From a virus, in the IMG/VR virus record IMGVR_UViG_3300036766_000065, positions 1 to 42,350 of that record: a DNA stretch of 42,350 nucleotides. One strand, written 5' to 3'. A model generated the notes under the pieces. It saw only the letters and a program-made list of their open reading frames with translations, did not search any database and was not told where the DNA came from. The position numbers were made by a program, and so were the translations under genes. Below, piece after piece: positions 22,369-42,350 of this stretch (position 1 is its first letter; every line of letters starts with the position of its first letter).

Positions 22369-25300
22369 TGGCGAACACCGACTTTCCCGACATCGTGAAT
22401 GTGCCGGACCCGAATGCTTCGCCTTTGGTTCCTAACCCCATTGTGCCTCCCAAACAAACGCTTGGCGAGTTTGCCGATCAGACTTCGGTAGGTCAACCCC
22501 CCGACACCACAGCGGACATCTTCCTGTCGCACATTGTCCAGATGCGCCAGCGCGGGCTCACCAACGATCAGATCGACCGCCTCTATGTTCGGCCGATGCA
22601 CGACAAAGCGATCTCCTTGGGCGTGACCGAGGAACAATTTCTGAAGTCGATCGGTGCCAATGGTGGAGACCCGACGCAGATCGACAATGCCGGTCGCGCG
22701 GGTCGCCCGCCCGAGAAACAGTCGGACGTGTTCTCGACTGTCATTAATTCCTTCCTGAATGAAGACCCTCTTGGCAACGCGGTCAACCTCGCAGTCAAGC
22801 AGCCTGAACTCGGTCCTCAAGACCTGGACATGATTCACCGTCTCGCCAAGATGACGGGCGCCAATGTCACCACACTTGCGGCCACAGCGACAATGGCAAC
22901 TGCCGGTGCTACCGTTGGTGCCTTTGGTGGTCCCGCCGATGTCGTCACGGTCCCCTTGGGGGCAGTTATTGGTGGCTCCCTTGGCTGGTTCTTCCCCGAT
23001 TGGGCTCGTAACATCATTGGAGACGTGAAGAAGAACGGGGGAATGTCCAATGAAGACATCGCTGCACGCCTTGCCGTGACCGCCTGGCAGTCTGCCAAAG
23101 AGACCGCTCCGGTTGCCGGCATGATCGCTGGCGGCGCCTTAGCGGCCCCCATAATGGCTGCTGCGGGGGCTGGCGCTGGCACGTCTGCCCTTGGTATCGG
23201 TGCCGCGGAGCTTGCCGGCCTTGTTGGCACAACGAAACTGATGACCGGGGCAATGCCGTCCGGCCAAGACCTTGCCGATCAGGTGGCGTTCATGCTCCTG
23301 TTCCACGGCATGAAGGCCACGCCGGCCGCGGTGCGTGGGGTACGCAATGCTCTGGTTGACAATTGGGTCAAGTATAATCAATCTCCCAAGGAAGCTGCGG
23401 CGGGCGTACAGGCGGGCACACAATCGCTTGCCACGATCGACGGCCAACTTCAGATCACGGTGCCTCCGGGTGGCGAACCCAAGACGCCTCCGGTTTCTCT
23501 TGCCAAGCAACCGTCGATCAGGAAGGTTGCCAAGGAAGCGGCTACCACCGTCGATGATCTTTTGCACGAAACCCTGACCGGGCGTTCTGCCGACGATATT
23601 GAAATGCGCAAGCGCGTCGAAGCTCTGCCGCCCGAGATCAGCAAACCTCCTGTGACTGGCGCCTATTCGACACTGGACGAGAAGTTCTATCATCATCAGG
23701 AGAACCCGCAAGCCCATCCTCTGACAGTTGAAGAACAAAAGGTTTGGGACGAGAACGCCGTTGCCCTGAACAAGATGGAAGAAGAAGCCCGTACTGAGGC
23801 GGAACCCTTCATCGTCCGGGGCAGCATTGAAGCGGCAGCGATTGATCCCGAGAACTACATTCACCGCATTCCAGTTGGCAAGGGAAGCGAGCAAGACTTC
23901 GCTTCAGGCGAACAGGTCCGGGCTCCATTCCTTCGCAGCAATCGTCGCACCAGTCGCCTCTCAACCTCGACACCATCGGCTAAACCGACGACCTATTACA
24001 CGCTCGTCGATCGTGCTGGTAATCGCATGGTGGTCAGCGACTATCCCGAAGGCGATGGTGTCTATGTCCACACCAACGGAACTCGTAGTGCAGAAGCTGT
24101 GTATGGCGGCACCGGACGATTGATCGAGGGCAAGTGGGTTGAAGAAAAAACCACGCCCGAGAAGATAACTGTCGAGAAGGTCAAGGTTCCTGAAATCAAG
24201 AACAACGATTTTACCAAGGGCAAGGTGACGCCGGGCGGCAAAGACGTGCCCGAGAAAACCACCGCGGCTCACGACACCTATGACGCACTGGTTCCCGGTT
24301 CGACCCGGCTCAAGGTCGGCGAATATTTCCGCGTAGCTCCGAAAGGCAAGGTTATCAATGCCTCTCCGAATGCTGAGGAAGGCAAGACCTGGAAGATTGA
24401 GCGGTCGAACACCGCGGAACTGGAACAGCACACGGCTACGCGCTACTACAAATCCTTCTTCGGTTCGAAGATCGACAACATCATGCGCCTGCGGCAAGCT
24501 GCTCGCAACGGCAATGTTCGTAAGATGACCATTGACGAAATGGTTGCGCGCGGCATGGCAATCCGCGCAGAGGGCAACCATTTCGTCAATGGTCATCTTA
24601 CGAACATTCCCGGCTACGAGGGTTGGTTGCTCCATCCCCAAGTCGCCGAAGTTCTGGAGGATTTTCAGAAGGGCGGTCCCCGATTGATCGACAATCCTCC
24701 GGCCATGCTCGACAATGCCAACAAACTTGCAATCAGTTCCATGTTCTTCAGCGGCCTCGGCGGTATCGCCCACGGACGCAATCTCTATGCCACATCATTC
24801 ACTGGACGCGGGCTCGACAATCTTCGTGGGCTTCCCCTATTCTCGATGCGGGCATGGCGCGCAGTCAACGATCTTTCGCCGGAATACATTCAAGCCCTCC
24901 GCGACGGCGCCTCCCTTTTGTCGTCCGGTGTTGGCAAAGACAGTCTTGCCAAGTTCGTCATGGATCGCATGGGGCAGGAGATCGCCCGCGATGGCGACAA
25001 CTACAATGAAATCGCGCAGAAACTTGGTTTGCCCAACGCTGTCGCTCTTGCCAAGACAATCAGCAATTGGCAGTCACACGAACTGTTCCGCATCAATGAC
25101 GTGTTCTACATGCAGCGGTATCTCGAATTGATGGACAAGGGCCTGTCCTCGAAGGAAGCAATCAAAGAGACCGAACGTTTCGCGGTTCCGAATTACCGCA
25201 TGTCGTCGAGGGTTGGCGGCTTCCGCACTCTGGCTCGCGCTCTTGGTGACACGAACATCACATGGTTCGGACGCTGGACGAGAGCCAAGTTCGGCATCTT

Positions 25301-30278: not shown

Positions 30279-30412
30279 TTCGGGCACCAGAGAATGACCA
30301 CGGGACCGAACCCGAAGAATGTGACTTCACCGAACTCGCGCGAGAAGCCAAGCCAGAAAGACCTTGGCGCCCACTGAATGTACCAGTTGCGTGCGATCCG
30401 CTTCGTCTTCAT
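30269..30412 (-). CDS. Small protein ending in CPKCG, 47 aa
   Basis: ATG 30412 overlaps the polymerase stop as ATGA. Begins MKTKRIARNWYIQWAPRSFW; aromatic-rich core and a C-terminal CPKCG, half of a zinc-ribbon knuckle, which could pair with a second molecule. No family recognised. Conserved-looking coupling on both sides supports translation. Confidence 0.6.
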   Translation of the reverse strand: MKTKRIARNWYIQWAPRSFWLGFSREFGEVTFFGFGPVVILWCPKCG

Positions 30413-32421
30413 TTTCTGTAACGGTCCCCTGACCATGTTTCTGCGGCAATCGGAATGCGAAGTTCCCGTGACCAAGAAGTACCGTACTCCATGATTTGCC
30501 GGAAAGCAACCTCGTCAACCCGAGAATTTTCAACCTCCCCCAAGTCTTCGTCGTGGACGGTTAACACAATGGGATAGCCCTCGGCTTCCAGCCGCAGGGT
30601 GGCGTCGGCCAAGAGATCGCGAGCGAGACCACTGGCAACATTCTCAGCCAGGAGACCGCCGAAAGCGTGGCACGTCTTCCACTGACCCATCTTCATTGCC
30701 TCGTATTCCCAGCCGGGGCGAATGTCGGGTTCCTCCGCGGTTGACCACGGCATTGCCTTGCGCACCGGGCGCGCGTTGGCATAGTAGAGCTTGCGCCCGC
30801 TGGGAAGGCGAGCGGTGAGCCAGATGTCTTCCATCTGGAAGGTGACGCCATATGCTTCAGTCGTCTTCTTTCCCCACACGGCGTCGATCGAGGCACTATC
30901 GAGAGCCTTCCAGAGCTTAGGAACTTCCGGCGCCCATTCATTGCGGTAGATATAGATCACGCGCTCTGCGAACTCCGGGTCTTGCTTCGGAGCGTATCGT
31001 GTTCGGAATTTCTTGGCTCCCATCTGGAAGCCGCAGCCAAGGACCGTGTTCTTGCCGATCGTGTATTCAGCCAGGTTATTCGCCTTGTCGATGTGGAACC
31101 CATAGATCAGGTCCGCCATATCGACGTAGGGCTTCCCGGTTACAAACAGTTGCACCTTATCATGCTGGCCGGCAAGGGCAAGCACGATACGGGCTTCGAT
31201 TTGTGCAAAGTCTCCGCTGACGAAACTTTTTCCCGGCGCCGCAATGAGGGAATGACGCAAGCCAGAAACCACGGTCTCCACCGGATTGCCAACTGTTTCC
31301 TGAACATATTGGTAGTCCCCGGTTTGAAGTGCAGCGACGATCAGTTCGTGCGAGACAGCATGGCCCTCAAGTTTGAGGGTGGGTCTTGGGAAATTTTGAG
31401 GCTGAAGTATCCTCCCGGCCCAACGTCCCGTTCCCGCCCCATGATACTGAAGCAAACCATATGCCCTTCCATCAGCGCAGACACTAGCCCGCATTCGAGC
31501 AAGTTTCTTGATACTTGCTGAACCAACAAGTTGTCGTATCTCAAGGGCTCGTCTGACGTGTTCTGGAACGTGGCGACTGTTTCCAGCCGGGTCAAGATCG
31601 CTTCCGTCATCGTCTTCTCCCGCGTCAATGTTTTTTCCCAGCACGGCCACCAGAGTTTCTTTCTGAAGGTTATCCAGCGGGTATCCTTGGGCGTTGACCC
31701 ACTCGACCACGGCCTTCGCCTGCGTGAACTGGAGGCCACCAGTAATCTTGCGGAACTCCTGTGCCAGTGGTGCCGTCGCTTCGTCCACGATCTTCTGACA
31801 GGCAGCGACGTACTTGAGATCGACACCGACGCCACGCTCATTGATCTTCTGATCGAGCAGCCACACCTTGCGCTCGCCAGACTGGAAGCCGCCTATGTAA
31901 TCGTGGACTTCCCGTTCCTCCCGCACGTCAGAAGTGACGTACTGATACACGCGCTCCATCACAACCGGCGTCCGCTCGATCACGGGCCTGCCCTTCTTGC
32001 CGGTGTTCGACAAGCTGATCGTGAGCTTCGAGCCTTCCCGGTCTTTGCCGTACCCGGTGCCAAGCACGCTCGTCAGGGTGTCCATGTCTTGCGGCAGAGA
32101 CTTCATGGCGGCGACGGCCATCGTATCATGCCACCGCTCGTCAGGAATATCCAGAAAGCGATAGACCGGGACCATGATCCGGCGCCAGATTGCTTTCTCG
32201 AACCCGGTATTGTGCGCGATGAAAACTACTTCGTCATCAAGGACAAGGGCTCGAAGCAATGTGTCATCATCGCCGGGTTTCCAGACTTCCACTCGCCCGT
32301 TATGTTCGAAACCAAGGCAAAGAATTTCTGTGTTCGGGTCTTCGGCATAGCGCCAGGCGCCGGCCACCTTCAGGTCGGTCGGGCTCGCTGTCTCGAAATC
32401 CACGACCACATATCGGGTCAT
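30409..32421 (-). CDS. DNA polymerase, family A, phage type
   Basis: 670 residues from ATG 32421 (ATGA overlap). It has proofreading exonuclease motifs VDFETAS (~8-14), FIAHNTGFEKAIW and YVTSDVREE, and polymerase motif A SGDFAQIEARI, motif B around KNTVLGCGFQMG, motif C TVHDED. No 5'-nuclease domain. This is the replicative polymerase of the phage, expected to work with the primase, RepA-like helicase and DUF2815 protein encoded upstream. Similar phage polymerases include those of 2-aminoadenine phages, but no purZ is present here. Confidence 0.93.
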   Translation of the reverse strand: MTRYVVVDFETASPTDLKVAGAWRYAEDPNTEILCLGFEHNGRVEVWKPGDDDTLLRALVLDDEVVFIAHNTGFEKAIWRRIMVPVYRFLDIPDERWHDTMAVAAMKSLPQDMDTLTSVLGTGYGKDREGSKLTISLSNTGKKGRPVIERTPVVMERVYQYVTSDVREEREVHDYIGGFQSGERKVWLLDQKINERGVGVDLKYVAACQKIVDEATAPLAQEFRKITGGLQFTQAKAVVEWVNAQGYPLDNLQKETLVAVLGKNIDAGEDDDGSDLDPAGNSRHVPEHVRRALEIRQLVGSASIKKLARMRASVCADGRAYGLLQYHGAGTGRWAGRILQPQNFPRPTLKLEGHAVSHELIVAALQTGDYQYVQETVGNPVETVVSGLRHSLIAAPGKSFVSGDFAQIEARIVLALAGQHDKVQLFVTGKPYVDMADLIYGFHIDKANNLAEYTIGKNTVLGCGFQMGAKKFRTRYAPKQDPEFAERVIYIYRNEWAPEVPKLWKALDSASIDAVWGKKTTEAYGVTFQMEDIWLTARLPSGRKLYYANARPVRKAMPWSTAEEPDIRPGWEYEAMKMGQWKTCHAFGGLLAENVASGLARDLLADATLRLEAEGYPIVLTVHDEDLGEVENSRVDEVAFRQIMEYGTSWSRELRIPIAAETWSGDRYRK

Positions 32422-32824: not shown

Positions 32825-33520
32825 CTAGTACGGAATTTCGTCGTCCTTCTCTTGCCCGATGGTCGGGTCCGTTTCCGAGACGTGCCCGGTGTAGGCTCCG
32901 AAGTTGGACGTGCTGGAGGAACCGCCCGCCAGCTTCTCGCCCTTGCCGGTCGAGACGATGTTGGCAAGGTATGCCTTCACGCCCGATTTTTGGCTTTCGT
33001 TCTTTGCCTTGTACCACTTCAGGTTCACCACGGCAAGCCCGAGGGCGCCCGTGTAGAACCATCCGTCACCGTTCTTCGTGCCGGCGTATTTCTTGATCAA
33101 GGCTTCATCGTTGCCGAGATCAAGGGCGCCGTCCTTCGGATTGCCCGAGGGAAAGACGCCTAGCTTGGGCGGATACTTGACGCCCGTGCTGGTAGTGAAG
33201 ATGACCTTACCACGATAGAAGGCACCGGCCGTAGCCGACTTCTTCTTTTCGGCAATCCCATCGGCTTTCTTGTCACCCGACTTAAACAACTTGTTGAAGG
33301 TGTCAAGCGGCGCCTGGCTATTCTCACGAATGAGCTTCAGCCAGAGAGCCTTAAGGGTTTCCAGGTCTTTGCTTGCTGGGTCGAACAGGAACTCCGTGCT
33401 GAAATAGAACGAACCTTCCGGCTTGTTCTCGTAGCTTTCCGGTGTGACCAGCTTCGGCCACACCATGATCGCCGGCTCAGTGAACTTGAAAATCTCGCCG
33501 GGTTTCTTTTCGTTTGCCAT
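32825..33520 (-). CDS. DUF2815 protein, single-stranded-DNA-binding candidate
   Basis: 231 residues from ATG 33520 (AAGGAC upstream). KFTEPAIMVWPKLVTPESYE, then FSTEFLFDPASKDLETLKAL near the start, a central GDKKADGIAEKKKSATAGAF region, an aromatic GAYTGHVSETDPTIGQ end and an acidic C-terminus (EKDDEIPY) fit the DUF2815 family, which is encoded beside DUF2800 and polymerase A genes in many phages and is considered an SSB-like protein related in layout to T7 gp2.5. The acidic tail would recruit other replication proteins. Confidence 0.8.
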   Translation of the reverse strand: MANEKKPGEIFKFTEPAIMVWPKLVTPESYENKPEGSFYFSTEFLFDPASKDLETLKALWLKLIRENSQAPLDTFNKLFKSGDKKADGIAEKKKSATAGAFYRGKVIFTTSTGVKYPPKLGVFPSGNPKDGALDLGNDEALIKKYAGTKNGDGWFYTGALGLAVVNLKWYKAKNESQKSGVKAYLANIVSTGKGEKLAGGSSSTSNFGAYTGHVSETDPTIGQEKDDEIPY

Positions 33521-33539
33521 GTGCTTGTCCTTTCGGGAC

Positions 33540-33595
33540 CATTGCTTCCCCAACGCGGGGCAATGAGTGTGGCGGCTTCAGTCGCCAGCCGCCAC
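33540..33595 (-). promoter_or_regulatory. Two hairpins between protease and SSB-like genes
   Basis: CATTG...CCCC-AACGC-GGGGCAATG (33540-33565) and GTGGCGGCT-9-AGCCGCCAC (33569-33595, perfect 9-bp stem) stand side by side in the 122-base gap. No U-runs follow. They may limit read-through or stabilise the SSB-like message. Confidence 0.5.
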
Positions 33596-33642
33596 TATCC
33601 TTTCTCGGACGAAAATTGCCGAGTGCGACCGGAGCCAGTATG

Positions 33643-34320
33643 TTACCGCGTTTCCCCAATCAGGTCAAGGGCGGAACAAAGGATAGTAGAGGGAATAGCG
33701 ATCCCGATAGCGATGACGGCGCCATGAAAGGCAGGAACCCCCACAATGACCCCCAAGAGGGCTCCTGAAGCGTCGAATACACCGCCCCCTGAGTTGCCTG
33801 GCGCCACGGTCGCATCCAGAGCGTAGGCTATGCGCCAATGACTTCCTTCGAAGTGTGTGAAGGGACCGGCGACATGCCCATCAACCTGAAGGAACCCGAG
33901 ATCGAGGGGATAGCCACGAACAGTGATAGGCTCCCCGACGATAGGTTGACGGCAAGCGACGGGGGTCGAGAAGATGTCGCTGGGGCTATCCGCGCGAAGG
34001 ATAGAGAGATCGTTGATCCCGTCCCAAAAGACCGGGCGAGCGGACAGCTTGTGACCGTGTTCCGTAATCAGGTCAACGGACTGATCGACGCGATCGGCGA
34101 CATGCGAGGCGGTGACAAAATAGCCCTTGCCGAGATAGACCGCGGAACCGGAGCCAGTTTCTGTGATAACCTGTACGGTCGAACGATCCCAGCCTTCAAA
34201 GGCGTTGTCGTCCTTGGCGTAGGCCGGGTGCCCGCAATAAGCAAGGCCAAGGATAGAAAGCATGACGCCAACAAAACTAGCGCGAGCGAAAATTTTCTTG
34301 GGAGAAGAAACTAAAGTCAT
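33643..34320 (-). CDS. Secreted trypsin-like serine protease
   Basis: 225 residues. N-terminal signal peptide: basic start, hydrophobic FVGVMLSILGLAYCG, likely cleavage after AYA near residue 35. The catalytic triad is visible: TASHVAD (His), INDLSILRAD (Asp), APGNSGGGVF (Ser). The protein would act in the periplasm or outside, which is unusual in a replication operon. ATG 34320 shares its A with the upstream TGA (TGATG); GTG 34323 is equally possible. Possible roles: superinfection control, envelope modification, or defence against host proteins; none is shown. Confidence 0.85.
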   Translation of the reverse strand: MTLVSSPKKIFARASFVGVMLSILGLAYCGHPAYAKDDNAFEGWDRSTVQVITETGSGSAVYLGKGYFVTASHVADRVDQSVDLITEHGHKLSARPVFWDGINDLSILRADSPSDIFSTPVACRQPIVGEPITVRGYPLDLGFLQVDGHVAGPFTHFEGSHWRIAYALDATVAPGNSGGGVFDASGALLGVIVGVPAFHGAVIAIGIAIPSTILCSALDLIGETR

Positions 34321-35465
34321 CACCAGTTCTCCGTCGCTTGAGGCGGAAACAATTCCGCGTTGGTTTTCACTTTGACACCAACACGTTTATCGCCCTTTAG
34401 CGCCAGTGTCAAGCCGCTATCCGGGGTGAATGCAAATTCATGCACCAGTCTTTTTGCCGCGTCTCCGATCTTTTCCATCCGTGCCGGCGACTTCAGAGAC
34501 GCGGGCTCGAATGCTTCGTCGCCAAAGTTGGACACGAACACGTCCTTGGCTTCGGGCTTCCAAGCGCGGTCGGCTTTCATTTTGACGAGCTTGATTTCCT
34601 CGAACTCGGCGCCGTTGTTCGCGCGGCGGAAGGCTTCGCCCTCGAACGCCTTGATGTATTGCTTGGCGCCGGACAAGAGCGGATAGTCACGGTCAATGTC
34701 AGCGTCTGTGAGGGTGACAACTTGGCGAGCGTCGGCTCTAACGGCAGCTTCAAAAAGTCCTCTAAGCACCGGGCAAACGAGCTTTGCAGGACAGAACCGA
34801 CACCATTCACCCTGGACAAGACCTCCGTCATTGTTATCAGCCCGGACCATTGAAGGTTGCAAGACGCCACTCGCCCAATCTCTGAGATATTGGGCAGAAC
34901 ACTCCCAGGATCGAACAACGCCTCCGGGGTGCCAGGTGATGCGGGGTTGGATGATGGTGATACGGACATTCTCGACCTCCGGGTGAAGCGCAAGGACACC
35001 ATAGGCATAGTACATGGTTTGAACGTTTTCGCCGACCTCGACCGCTACGCCTTCACCAAACTTAAAGTCGGCAATGTCGAGCGTTGTGCCATTGACCGCG
35101 GCGAAGTCCACTGTACCGAAGAATTTCTTGTGAAACTCCGGGCGAGCCATTGGATACTCGATGTACCGGGCGACGGCATTCACCATCAAGGGGCGCGCGA
35201 AGTCGATGAAGGTCTGGATGGCGCGAGCCATGTCCGGTGTGATGATGACGCCGTTCTCATGCTTCTGCCCGACAACCATGTAAGCATCTTCGCCGGCTTC
35301 CAGAGCGGTCGCGAGACCCCAATGGGCAGCGGTGCCCTCGGCCCGGTATTCGGGCTCGTCAGTTTCATGAAGTTCAAGCTGCCGGATCAGCGCGACAGAG
35401 CCGACACACTTCATCCATCTCTCGGCGCCGCTCGCTCCTAGGTCACTGTGTCCAGCTTCAGTCAC
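34320..35465 (-). CDS. DUF2800 protein, RecB/Cas4-like PD-(D/E)XK nuclease
   Basis: 381 residues, GTG start at 35465 overlapping the upstream gene by eight bases. The nuclease core is GTVDFAAVNGTTLDIADFKF (Asp, then D-x-K). Cysteines in AERWMKCVGS (N-terminal) and WCRFCPAKLVCPV (about 235) match the four-cysteine iron-sulfur cluster of Cas4/AddB-type nucleases. In phages the DUF2800 gene lies with DUF2815, polymerase and SNF2 genes, and is thought to process DNA ends in recombination. Confidence 0.85.
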   Translation of the reverse strand: MTEAGHSDLGASGAERWMKCVGSVALIRQLELHETDEPEYRAEGTAAHWGLATALEAGEDAYMVVGQKHENGVIITPDMARAIQTFIDFARPLMVNAVARYIEYPMARPEFHKKFFGTVDFAAVNGTTLDIADFKFGEGVAVEVGENVQTMYYAYGVLALHPEVENVRITIIQPRITWHPGGVVRSWECSAQYLRDWASGVLQPSMVRADNNDGGLVQGEWCRFCPAKLVCPVLRGLFEAAVRADARQVVTLTDADIDRDYPLLSGAKQYIKAFEGEAFRRANNGAEFEEIKLVKMKADRAWKPEAKDVFVSNFGDEAFEPASLKSPARMEKIGDAAKRLVHEFAFTPDSGLTLALKGDKRVGVKVKTNAELFPPQATENW

Positions 35466-35631
35466 GTTTCTTTAGCTCCGTTCGAATGACTGTTACGTCC
35501 GCGCTTCCGGGTTGTATGACTGACACGACCGTAACATGCTCGCTCACGATCAGGCGTCGGTTCAAACTCTCCTGAATAAACTCACAGATCGTGGCTTGGT
35601 TGAGGCGCAATTCATTAATGCCTATCGACAT
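35458..35631 (-). CDS. Small protein before DUF2800, 57 aa
   Basis: ATG 35631 has a strong AGGAG seven bases upstream. Begins MSIGINELRLNQATICEFIQ and ends with a beta-rich VVSVIQPGSADVTVIRTELK. It follows a long folded leader and overlaps the nuclease gene. The N-terminal helix (NELRLNQATICEFIQESLNR) could bind nucleic acid or a partner; family not recognised. Confidence 0.65.
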   Translation of the reverse strand: MSIGINELRLNQATICEFIQESLNRRLIVSEHVTVVSVIQPGSADVTVIRTELKKRD

Positions 35632-35651
35632 GCTTTTACTCCTGTTTGGAA

Positions 35652-35830
35652 CCGAGAGACCCACTTACGCAACTAACGCTGAGGCGACGTGCCGTGGTTT
35701 CTCTCGGCCCGGAAGTACCCGCTTCCACGGGGTTCAAAAAATACGTTTGGCGGTCAAGCATGTTGCATTTGTCCCGACGACCCTTGCAATCACTCAGGTA
35801 GCAACCTGACGCCTATGTGCTTGACCGCCA
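35652..35830 (-). promoter_or_regulatory. Structured leader RNA candidate before the nuclease genes
   Basis: The 252-base gene-free gap at 35632-35883 contains, in 5'-3' order on the minus strand: a 13-bp arm pair (35818-35830 with 35748-35760) enclosing a 6-bp tetraloop hairpin (TCAGGT-AGCA-ACCTGA, 35794-35809); CCGTGG/CCACGG (35692-35697, 35725-35730) enclosing GGAAG/CTTCC (35711-35715, 35722-35726); and an 8-bp pair CCGAGAGA/TCTCTCGG (35652-35659, 35700-35707) that overlaps the previous element and could compete with it. This looks like a regulatory 5' leader. Confidence 0.55.
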
Positions 35831-35883
35831 TCCTTCCGTTGATCCGCCGATAACGAGTTTGGCAGAACGATCAAACGGCCCAT

Positions 35884-36414
35884 TCAGGCCAGCGCGGCCA
35901 ATTCCTCTAAAAACTTCGCGCGGATTGATTGCGGCAGAGTGATCACCGACTTGGTGAGATCGGCCACATACTTCGCCTTGAGGGCGCGCACCTTGGTCGG
36001 GCCATCGGCGCCGACCTTGGCAACTGCGCGATTGCAGGCGCTAAGAAGATCGTCGTTGCTGATCTCGGCCACGACAGGAGCGTCGAAACTCTCGACCACT
36101 TCGGATGGGTCTTTGGCCTTGACGCCAGCGAAGGCTTCCTTGTTCAGATCAGCGTCGGTGACTGTCTCTGTCACTTCCGCAGCGTCAACCTTCTTCGCAC
36201 GTGGCTTACGTTCCTTGACAGGTTCCGTTGCGGGCACGACAACTCCCGCGACGTTGCCGCCTAAGAGATTGGCGACCACTGACTGTGCATGGACCGCAGC
36301 ATTCGCCACGTCAGCGGGGTCATCAAACGCGAACGTCGCATCGGCCCGCTTCGAATTGTAGTCGCCCAGGTTGACGGTGCGACCGTAGGTGATTGATCCG
36401 CCAGTGATTGCCAT
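35884..36414 (-). CDS. Hypothetical early protein, 176 aa
   Basis: ATG 36414 has GGAG six bases upstream. The N-terminus AITGGSITYGRTVNLGDYNS then KRADATFAFDD is a pattern I associate with a phage family encoded in replication or recombination modules. A Lys/Arg-rich linker (KERKPRAKKVDAAEV) precedes an acidic middle and a C-terminal helical domain (VRALKAKYVADL). It may bind single-stranded DNA or act as an adaptor; function unknown. Confidence 0.7.
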   Translation of the reverse strand: MAITGGSITYGRTVNLGDYNSKRADATFAFDDPADVANAAVHAQSVVANLLGGNVAGVVVPATEPVKERKPRAKKVDAAEVTETVTDADLNKEAFAGVKAKDPSEVVESFDAPVVAEISNDDLLSACNRAVAKVGADGPTKVRALKAKYVADLTKSVITLPQSIRAKFLEELAALA

Positions 36415-36496: not shown

Positions 36497-36718
36497 TCAG
36501 GGCGTGCCCGCCTCTTGCCTTGGCTCCTGTCCGCCCGTGCGGCCAGCTTCCTCTACACTACTCGAACTCGGCGAGGCTGTCAAGGGCCGATTAAGAGTAG
36601 CGTGGATGATGGTTCCGCGTCGATTACGGAAATGCCCCATGCTTGCCCAATCGCGAAGATTGCCAAGCAATCGAACGGTATTGCGACGGGCTGTGCGATA
36701 GGTGGCAGGGTCTCTCAT
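36497..36718 (-). CDS. Small basic protein after the helicase, 73 aa
   Basis: ATG 36718 overlaps the helicase stop as ATGA. Begins MRDPATYRTARRNTVRLLGN; arginine-rich first half and a low-complexity Ser/Gly/Glu end (ASPSSSSVEEAGRTGGQEPR). No family recognised. The N-terminal half looks coding, while the tail could be drift past a lost stop. Confidence 0.5.
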   Translation of the reverse strand: MRDPATYRTARRNTVRLLGNLRDWASMGHFRNRRGTIIHATLNRPLTASPSSSSVEEAGRTGGQEPRQEAGTP

Positions 36719-38364
36719 GCTATTCTCCGATCGAGTGCCTTTTCAGCAATCTGCCCTTTTCTGAGGGCTTTGGCAAGTACCCTTTCCGCAAAGGAACCGG
36801 GGATTACGAAAATGTCGCCTTGAACGGTACGTCGCTGCCCCCCTCGATCAAGGCGGTCAAAGCATTGTTCATTCTGACCGTGGACCCAATCGGGCTCCGC
36901 AAGTAGAGCGTGCCAGGCAACGTCTTGTAGTCCATCAGTGCCCGTCCCAAGAGTGAGGACGTTGCCAATGATGAAATCCACCGCAGGGTCTTTGAGGAAA
37001 CGGTTTTTCTTTTGCTCATTCGAGGCTCCCTGACCGGGACGATAGCGGACGAGGCCATACTTAGACAGCCGCGCCTCCAGAATGTCAAGCACTTCCGTAT
37101 GCCATGCGAAAACGACCAACTTCTTTTCACCCCCGTCAATCAGCATATCGAGATAGTCGCACACCAGCGGCGCCATTGCAACGCCCATCTGTTGTCGCAC
37201 GGTCGCGATGGCGCCACCAAACGTTGCCACATCAGCGCCTTCCAGGTTCTCAGGGTCGATGTCAAGCAAACGTTCCGCGGCAAGCGCCTGGCGCACGGCG
37301 GCATCGGTCTCGTCAAGCTCAATAATGTCGAACTTGGGCAACTTCAATTGATCCATGACACCATCGGGGCCGCGTTTCAGGTGCCGCGACATGAAGTTGA
37401 CGCGCATCCGCGCTTGAAGCTCGGCGTGCCGGCCGGTGCGTTCGTCCGTGAAGACCTTGACCCGATGCTCGGCTTCGTCCCATTTCTCAATTTTGCGAGA
37501 AGGGTTGAACCGCTCACGGAAATGATCTTCGCTCATGTAGTCGATCGCGTCCCAATTCAATCCGCGAGCAAGAGTATAAGCCTCTCTTGGTCGATTGGGA
37601 AGAGGCGTTCCAGTAAGTGCAAGCACGTTATCTGCCCTCGACGATAGAGGGTCAAAAAGCGGATTTTCGCCACCGCCAAACACCGCGCGTGTTCTTCGGG
37701 CGTCAATTGATTTAAGGTAGTGGCCTTCATCGAGGATAAGAAGATCGTAGTGATCTTTAGCCAATGCGCGGCCGATCGCCTCTGACCGCGCAAGTTCATA
37801 GCTGACAACTGTCCATTGAGCGTTGGGATGGGTTCCATCTTTCGAACTCCTGATCAGGTGGACATGATAAGGGAATTTCATCGTCGTCCATTCACGAATA
37901 CGCTTGACCCATTGCCCGCGAATTGCTGCCGGCACGATGACCAGAATGCGCCGCGCCTGGCGTTCGTTGGCGAGAGCGATGGCGACTTGGGTCTTGCCGA
38001 GACCGGGCTGGTCGCCGACAAGAATGTTCGACCGAGTGCGGCAGTAGTCCAGATCGGCAACCTGAAAAGGCCAAAGCTCAAGGCCATAGGGCACGGGGTA
38101 GTGCCCGGTGCCGGCTTTCGCCCATGAAGCATCATATTCCTTCTGCATCGCTGCCAGCACTTCCTTGGCGCGAGTGGTGCCGAACTTCTCCGCGAAGGGC
38201 AAAGCAGCATATGGTTCCTTGGTGAAAAACACAGCGGTCTCGGCTGTCGAAGCTGGCGCCGACAGGTCAAGTCCGTGTTCATTCATAAAGGCGTCAATGT
38301 CCCTTCTCGCGCGTGGGACACGCAAGACGAACGTCTCATTCGCCTTGTTGTAATCGAGCTTCAT
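36715..38364 (-). CDS. SNF2-type superfamily 2 DNA helicase/translocase
   Basis: 549 residues. Motifs in order: LWPFQVADL, GDQPGLGKTQVA (Walker A, ~117-128), VPAAIRGQW (Ia), LILDEGHYLK (DEGH box, motif II), LTGTPLPNRP (III), then in the second lobe NVLTLGTGTDGLQDV (V) and CFDRLDRGGQ (VI, Arg finger region). It lacks a fused nuclease. In phages these ATPases accompany DUF2800 and polymerase A genes and probably remodel replication or recombination intermediates. It starts at the base after the upstream stop. Confidence 0.9.
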   Translation of the reverse strand: MKLDYNKANETFVLRVPRARRDIDAFMNEHGLDLSAPASTAETAVFFTKEPYAALPFAEKFGTTRAKEVLAAMQKEYDASWAKAGTGHYPVPYGLELWPFQVADLDYCRTRSNILVGDQPGLGKTQVAIALANERQARRILVIVPAAIRGQWVKRIREWTTMKFPYHVHLIRSSKDGTHPNAQWTVVSYELARSEAIGRALAKDHYDLLILDEGHYLKSIDARRTRAVFGGGENPLFDPLSSRADNVLALTGTPLPNRPREAYTLARGLNWDAIDYMSEDHFRERFNPSRKIEKWDEAEHRVKVFTDERTGRHAELQARMRVNFMSRHLKRGPDGVMDQLKLPKFDIIELDETDAAVRQALAAERLLDIDPENLEGADVATFGGAIATVRQQMGVAMAPLVCDYLDMLIDGGEKKLVVFAWHTEVLDILEARLSKYGLVRYRPGQGASNEQKKNRFLKDPAVDFIIGNVLTLGTGTDGLQDVAWHALLAEPDWVHGQNEQCFDRLDRGGQRRTVQGDIFVIPGSFAERVLAKALRKGQIAEKALDRRIA

Positions 38365-41425: not shown

Positions 41426-41754
41426 GCTCTTGCTCCCTCGGAAAACGGAATGTTGATCCCGGCCGCTACACGGGCTTGAATGCGGGCGCGAGCGTCGGTT
41501 CTGACTTCGGACGGAAGCCAATAGCCCTGCCTCATGTAGCGCATGGCGCGACCGTAAGCGAACGGGTCGCTGTGATCCGATTGGGCATACAAGCGCGCGG
41601 CTTCACGCAATTGCCAGTCAGTGCCAAGAGCAAAGACCGGGCGAGCGGCCGGCGCATGGAGTGTTGGATCAGGAATGTCTTTGATAAATTCCTGCCAGCG
41701 TTGATTGATCAATTCCAGAAGCGGGGTCGTCTTACTGACGGCGCGAATTGTCAT
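41422..41754 (-). CDS. Hypothetical early protein, 110 aa, initiator candidate
   Basis: ATG 41754 overlaps the repeat-protein stop (ATGA). Contains LLELINQRWQEFIKDIPDPT, LREAARLYAQSDHSDPFAYG and RAMRYMRQGYWLPSEVRTDA; helical and basic. If the iterons are an origin, an iteron-binding protein is needed, and this and the 82-aa protein are the neighbours of the primase to test. No family recognised. Confidence 0.6.
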   Translation of the reverse strand: MTIRAVSKTTPLLELINQRWQEFIKDIPDPTLHAPAARPVFALGTDWQLREAARLYAQSDHSDPFAYGRAMRYMRQGYWLPSEVRTDARARIQARVAAGINIPFSEGARA

Positions 41755-42350
41755 TTGTTGTCGTGCTCCCATGCTTGTGCAAACGCGGTCGCTCTGGCTT
41801 CGTGGTAAGCCTTCAACGCGGGCGCTGTGGCTTCGTCGTAAGCCTTCCACGCGGGCGCTCTGGCTTCGTCGTAAGCCTTCTGCGCGGGCGCTCTGGCTTC
41901 GTCGTAAGCCTTCTGCGCGGGCGCTATGGCTTCGCGGTAAGCCTTCTGCGCGGACGCTATGGCTTTGTCGTAAGCCTTCTGCGCGGTCGCTCTGGCTTTG
42001 TCGTAAGCCTTCTGCGCGGGCGCTGTGGCTTCGCTGTAAGCCTTCCGCGCGGGCGCTGTGGCTTCGCTGTAAGCCTTCCACGCGGGCGCTCTGGCTTTGT
42101 CGTAAGCCTTCTGCGCGGTCGCCATGGCTTTACGGCAAGCCTTCAACGCGGGCGCTGTGGCTTCGTCGTAAGCCTTCCACGCGGGCGCTGTGGCTTCGTC
42201 GTAAGCCTTCTGCGCGGGCGCTCTGGCTTTACGGCAAGCCTTCCACGCGGGCGCTGAAAGCAAGTTTAGAGATGCCCAATTCCAATCGAATTTGTCCGCA
42301 ACTTCCAGACAAACATCGACGGTTGGAACAACTCCATTTGGAAAGAGCTT
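41751..42350 (-). CDS. 11-residue-repeat protein, 3' part (5' part at 151-1)
   Basis: Continuation of the gene that starts at 151. Residues 56-209 of the 222-residue product are 14 tandem 11-residue units of the form A-P/T-A-x-K-A-Y/C-x-x-A-x (APAWKAYDEAT, APAQKAYDEAR, ATAQKAYDKAI), then ATAFAQAWEHDNK. Period 11 with small residues facing one side and charged ones the other suggests a long right-handed helical bundle or rod. A local start at TTG 42263 gives 170 residues but lacks an RBS and ignores the head encoded across the junction. The stop is coupled to the next gene (ATGA). Role unknown. Confidence 0.8.
   Translation of the reverse strand, partial: KLFPNGVVPTVDVCLEVADKFDWNWASLNLLSAPAWKACRKARAPAQKAYDEATAPAWKAYDEATAPALKACRKAMATAQKAYDKARAPAWKAYSEATAPARKAYSEATAPAQKAYDKARATAQKAYDKAIASAQKAYREAIAPAQKAYDEARAPAQKAYDEARAPAWKAYDEATAPALKAYHEARATAFAQAWEHDNK
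41790..42260. repeat. 33-bp tandem repeat array inside the repeat-protein gene
   Basis: About 14 units of 33 bases, such as GCCTTCCACGCGGGCGCT with variable ends. Because the unit is a multiple of three, several frames on both strands stay open, producing large false ORFs. The copy number could be wrong in a short-read assembly. Confidence 0.9.
42269..42350. repeat. Terminal direct repeat, right copy (contig overlap)
   Basis: Exact second copy of bases 1-82. Both copies lie inside the coding sequence of the 11-residue-repeat protein, a further reason to regard them as one locus read twice. Confidence 0.95.

Follow-up and report, generated by a model that had tools for sequence, protein, structure and literature searches.

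Strongly folded hairpins in the gap upstream of an exonuclease gene in a viral replication region, with long stems at the same junction in relatives

Described systems and the genomic setting of the gap

The early region of phage T7 contains RNase III processing hairpins such as R1.1, which separates genes 1.0 and 1.1, is about 60 nt long, contains a defined asymmetric internal loop and is a proven site of cleavage (PMC6121014). In phage T4, the DNA polymerase gp43 represses translation by binding an operator hairpin that precedes its own start, and the top 10 bases of the operator are common to T4 and RB69 (PMC3014915). The gap described here resembles R1.1 in being a stem-loop between consecutive genes of a phage operon, and the gene 43 operators in placing a hairpin upstream of the ribosome-binding site of a phage replication gene. 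It differs from R1.1 in having a branched loop closed by a perfect 13-bp stem, the structure being a predicted one, and from the operators in that the stems of its relatives share position and not sequence. Intrinsic terminators and attenuators likewise have a GC-rich stem with a U-tract nearby, and some relatives show the textbook form, whereas the U6 tract of this gap is 6 nt away, the loop is 57 nt long and no significant T enrichment was found. As in leader-peptide switches of the ermC/trp type, a short ORF overlaps one arm of a stem, but this ORF has no usable Shine-Dalgarno (SD) sequence, no conservation and no switch in the calculated ensemble. The DUF2800-associated RNA motif, a published candidate that would lie near DUF2800 genes, is a possible lead; neither the window nor the relatives scanned gave a match to an Rfam 15 family. 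Beyond the presence of stems, the gap has none of the defining features tested for specific known families.

The window, the whole stretch of 42,350 nt analysed here, is an IMG/VR virus record with its replication genes in the right part on the minus strand. In operon order these are an SNF2 helicase (36715-38364), an upstream gene of about 176 aa (35884-36414), the gap (35632-35883), a 57-codon ORF (35458-35631), a DUF2800 / PD-(D/E)XK exonuclease of phrog_69 (34320-35465), a trypsin-like (protease-like) gene, a gp2.5-like ssDNA-binding protein (32825-33553) and a family A DNA polymerase (30409-32421), with an AAA_25 ATPase also encoded among them on the same strand. The same order of helicase, small gene, RecB-type exonuclease, ssDNA-binding protein and polymerase occurs in Microcystis phage Mae-Yong1326-1, and the upstream gene is conserved, adjoining the exonuclease in the relatives too. 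The 252-nt gap runs from the TGA of the upstream gene (35886-35884) to an ATG at 35631-35629. A preliminary description had presented it as a leader before the recombination nuclease; the gap is indeed found at this position, but the first gene after it is the 57-codon ORF, for which a homologue search detected none and whose stop overlaps the GTG of the exonuclease (35465).

Hairpins of the gap and their significance

Two structural elements were found on the minus strand of the gap. Element 1 (35748-35830, 83 nt) has a perfect 13-bp outer stem (TGGCGGTCAAGCA/TGCTTGACCGCCA at 35748-35760/35818-35830) closing a 57-nt loop that contains a tetraloop hairpin (35794-35809, TCAGGT-UGCU-ACCTGA) and a second inner hairpin (35763-35789). 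Among the matches listed for the whole window, this is the only fully complementary pair of at least 13 nt within 250 nt. A U6 tract (35736-35741) starts 6 nt past the 3′ end of element 1 (AACGTA TTTTTT). Element 2 (35652-35707) consists of an 8-bp stem (CCGAGAGA/TCTCTCGG at 35652-35659/35700-35707) with an inner CCAC/GTGG stem of 4 bp. Its 3′ end lies 20 nt before the ATG (35631) of the 57-codon ORF, the SD sequence of which (AGGAG) occupies 35637-35643 with the next bases, while element 1 is 116 nt from the same ATG. The 252-base gap, the 13-bp long-range pair, the tetraloop hairpin and the nested double stem of the preliminary description were therefore all located in the sequence, and the predicted structure includes a double-stranded stem between genes, as is expected of an RNase III site.

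The gap folds into unusually strong hairpins, which confirms the original observation. The minimum for the whole gap is -96.8 kcal/mol, with z-scores of -3.3 on the minus strand and -4.1 on the plus strand; the corresponding values for element 1 are -5.3 (minus, sense) and -6.2 (plus, antisense), and element 2 has a z-score of -3.4. In a dinucleotide-corrected scan of the whole window at a step of 2, element 1 ranked second on the plus strand and third on the minus strand among independent 85-nt stretches. A coarser scan at a step of 30 missed it because no scanned window contained both arms. Seven perfect 8-bp complements were found in the gap against 0.44 expected from mononucleotide shuffles, six of the seven being derived from the single 13-bp arm.

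No family of the Rfam 15 covariance models reached its gathering threshold in the window, the only match in the gap at E<=5 being a chance-level one outside both elements, and the relatives scanned with the same models gave no match. A search of viral and genome contigs with the exact arms as a pattern found no copy of element 1, and the scan for promoter-like or terminator-like sites reported none within the gap.

Long stems in related loci

Searches with the exonuclease, the upstream gene, the 57-aa ORF and the helicase gave no close relative, none exceeding 49% exonuclease identity, and DNA-level searches of phage records and of genome contigs were likewise without a close relative. The exonuclease alignment provided 80 loci of 30-49% identity with the conserved upstream gene. 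Strong folds were observed in the ORF-free gaps before the exonuclease at L019, L009, L034, L008 and L002, and in that of L035, which contains only a 30-codon ORF. Perfect stems of 10 or more pairs, enclosing loops of 20-75 nt, concentrate in the exonuclease gap, in the gap before the DNA polymerase and about 4 kb upstream.

The recurrence of stems was counted on an enlarged, de-duplicated set of IMG/VR relatives in which the gene order is kept, and the window itself is outside the 55 loci counted at the exonuclease. A helix of at least nine Watson-Crick pairs precedes the exonuclease in 15 of 55 gaps (3.0 expected from dinucleotide shuffles, a five-fold excess) and the DNA polymerase in 33 of 57 (3.5 expected), although these locus counts are not fully independent because the loci are related by descent. 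In 13 exonuclease and 20 polymerase gaps the stem has its 3′ end 10-40 nt ahead of the start codon, with 0.9 expected for each; start codons were assigned by a script on the basis of tblastn and SD scores, and some assignments will be wrong. The control gaps, taken from an earlier set, show no enrichment and stay near the shuffles (2 of 25 before the upstream gene, 1 of 30 before the ssDNA-binding gene), so that the enrichment depends on the junction. About 70% of the exonuclease gaps of the relatives have no such stem, and many relatives have either no gap or a small gene there; the stem is therefore not essential. Element 1, at 116 nt from the ATG, falls outside the 10-40 nt cluster. Element 2 is inside it, but its 8 contiguous pairs are below the nine-pair cut-off.

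The longest stem of this kind among the relatives, perfect over 22 bp and with a 58-nt loop (L033:6933-7034), ends 12 nt ahead of the start codon of the polymerase. Long stems cluster at a third place in the family as well, about 4.3 kb upstream of the stop of the upstream gene, where perfect stems of 11-15 bp with loops of about 40 nt occur in L003, L004, L024 and L035. The L003 stem at this position covers the final codons of an ORF on the reverse strand.

The stem sequences are mostly unrelated between loci, and among more closely related loci the pairing is kept while the sequence changes. Such is the case in the polymerase gap for L147 (GGGGCC-GAAA-GGCCCC) against L153 (GGGGTC-GAAA-GACCCC) and for L046 against L067. 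In the exonuclease gap, pairing is kept past the common TAAGGAA at the gap start between L008 (ATGGCAGGG/CCCTGCCAT) and L101 (TGGGGTGG/CCACCCCA), two stems that were compared by eye as the MAFFT alignment misplaced them. At the same junction the nearest relative found, L019 (49% identity in the exonuclease, 61% in the helicase), has an 83-nt element with a 14-pair stem, which equals element 1 in length, lies 6 nt past the upstream stop and has a z-score of -4.8. The L019 gap is 49% identical to the one studied here, which is within the maximum of 52% reached by shuffled sequences (mean 43%), and the two gaps are therefore not alignable. Stems at the same position in L019, L008 and L101 thus pair with different sequence, and all the relatives are too distant for covariation of element 1 to be assessed.

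An 11-mer, TAGTTGCGTAA, is common to the gap (35665-35675) and L019:4815-4825 (BLAST E 0.013); among the fetched loci it was otherwise found only in L068, on the opposite strand, and in copies of the same records. The inner loops of the long stems of the relatives have a mean z-score of -0.55 in the sense direction, scarcely more structured than shuffles, which means that branching is not conserved and that the recurring part is the outer stem. A conserved three-way junction was rejected on this ground. The preliminary description had suggested that the region may be an undescribed cis-regulatory RNA. This is supported in part: the region is structured and matches no Rfam family, relatives repeatedly have long stems at this junction, and the open-licence papers searched contain no description of such an arrangement.

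Possible roles of the stems

We consider, with moderate confidence, that the gap serves as intercistronic punctuation in which the hairpins would act on the mRNA through processing, end protection or partial termination. Once transcribed, the gap would fold into the long-stem hairpin of element 1 and the second stem of element 2, 20 nt before the start codon. These stems may be processing or end-protecting hairpins, serving as RNase III-like cut sites or as roadblocks to exonucleases; alternatively they may be leaky terminators. Expression of the upstream gene would be separated from that of the 57-codon ORF and the exonuclease, the ribosome-binding site would be kept clear of upstream structure, and the hairpins probably set the amount of the next protein. 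The analysis establishes the stems, their significance and their recurrence at this junction with largely unrelated sequence in relatives; it suggests action as sense RNA, and we infer the effects on processing, termination and expression. If the hairpins do act in this way, many uncultured tailed phages would share a structure-based setting of the ratio of recombination to replication proteins. Such a device would be visible only as structure and position, and would thus be missed by sequence-based and Rfam searches. It would also offer a testable rule, in which the 3′ end of a long stem lies 10-40 nt ahead of a polymerase or exonuclease start codon.

Termination could also be the whole explanation, element 1 and U6 forming a leaky intrinsic terminator or attenuator at which some transcripts would stop once past the upstream gene, and we regard this as possible though doubtful. 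In addition to the U6 tract downstream of element 1, TTTTAATT (L008) and TTTTATTTT (L101) are found directly 3′ of the corresponding stem, and the polymerase gap of L146-L153 has a textbook GC stem, tetraloop and T7 tract. The U6 tract, however, starts only at 6 nt past the stem, too far for a canonical terminator, and the terminator scan is silent on it; neither the short loop nor the immediate U-tract of an intrinsic terminator is present, the loop having 57 nt. T-rich sequence follows the stem in 1 of 11 exonuclease gaps against 7 of 45 stemless ones at the corresponding place, and in 6 of 18 polymerase gaps against 9 of 39. The enrichment of T over stemless gaps is not significant and termination was rejected as a general explanation.

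An autogenous translational operator, in which a replication or recombination protein would bind the stem near the ribosome-binding site and repress translation, appears unlikely. The 3′ ends of the stems do cluster just 5′ of the exonuclease and polymerase SD sequences, and the T4 DNA polymerase with the operator hairpin upstream of its own start offers a precedent (PMC3014915), but no common loop or junction sequence was noticed across the relatives, in contrast to the top 10 bases shared by the T4 and RB69 operators. We give a similarly low probability to a chance fold of a non-coding stretch that has no function. Most exonuclease gaps of the relatives have no stem and the exact element has no homologue, as such a fold would predict, whereas the z-scores of -5.3 and -6.2, the rank of two to three in the window and the five-fold enrichment of stems at the junction in relatives argue against it.

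No more probable in our estimate is the broader proposal of lineage-wide hairpins 5′ of the exonuclease and polymerase ribosome-binding sites, locked in position and variable in sequence, which would have co-diverged with a phage or host partner that controls the dosage of the replication genes.

An element acting at the DNA level instead of as RNA, namely a single-strand initiation site, an origin or a protein-binding inverted repeat, is quite unlikely. It would fit the location among replication genes and the perfect Watson-Crick stem that is slightly more stable on the non-gene strand. Against it, stems of the same class are positioned relative to start codons, and at their wobble-compatible positions G-U exceeds A-C: the counts are 12 to 1 in the polymerase-gap stems (p=0.003 against base composition) and 21 to 7 for both gaps pooled (p=0.008), while the exonuclease-gap subset alone gives 9 to 6, which is not significant. 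This G-U excess suggests sense RNA for the stem class, although element 1 itself folds slightly better as antisense.

The preliminary description had further proposed that translation of a 13-codon ORF could switch the gap between alternative folds. The ORF does exist on the minus strand (35790-35831; ATG 35831-35829, TGA 35792-35790) and spans the 5′ arm of element 1, but GGAAGG (35837-35832) touches the ATG, and with zero spacing there is no usable SD sequence; we judge the ORF not to be functional. A comparable short, SD-preceded uORF is absent from 51 gaps of 80-300 nt in the relatives, where most ATGs that follow an SD sequence begin ORFs of 51-449 codons and the only short ones have 2 and 6 codons. 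The 8-bp complement of the start-codon region, ACAUGCUU, is likewise present. In the ensemble calculation its pairing with this region has a probability of 0 in the unblocked RNA and of no more than 0.065 when a ribosome-sized footprint blocks the 5′ arm, and the unpaired probability of the start-codon bases stays at 0.04-0.19, leaving the accessibility of the AUG unchanged, so that two competing folds of similar stability are not seen. With zero SD spacing, no such uORF in relatives and an alternative pair that scarcely forms when the arm is blocked, a translation-driven switch is highly improbable.

Several other structured or repeated regions were observed in the window. The gap before the ssDNA-binding protein (33541-33642) contains a 9-bp hairpin (GTGGCGGCT/AGCCGCCAC) that ends about 26 nt before the start codon, with a whole-gap z-score of -1.7. 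The strongest fold of the window (z about -11) is a 46-nt inverted repeat at 24509-24612, 91% complementary with a 12-nt loop and located inside a 1172-aa ORF, which could be real or an assembly artefact. Near the left end, iteron-like repeated GCGTAGGACA/CATAGCGTAGGACA units at 596-765 overlap strongly folded stretches at 626-729 and about 723-810. At the right end (41685-42344), about 20 copies of a tandem 33-nt unit lie within overlapping ORFs.
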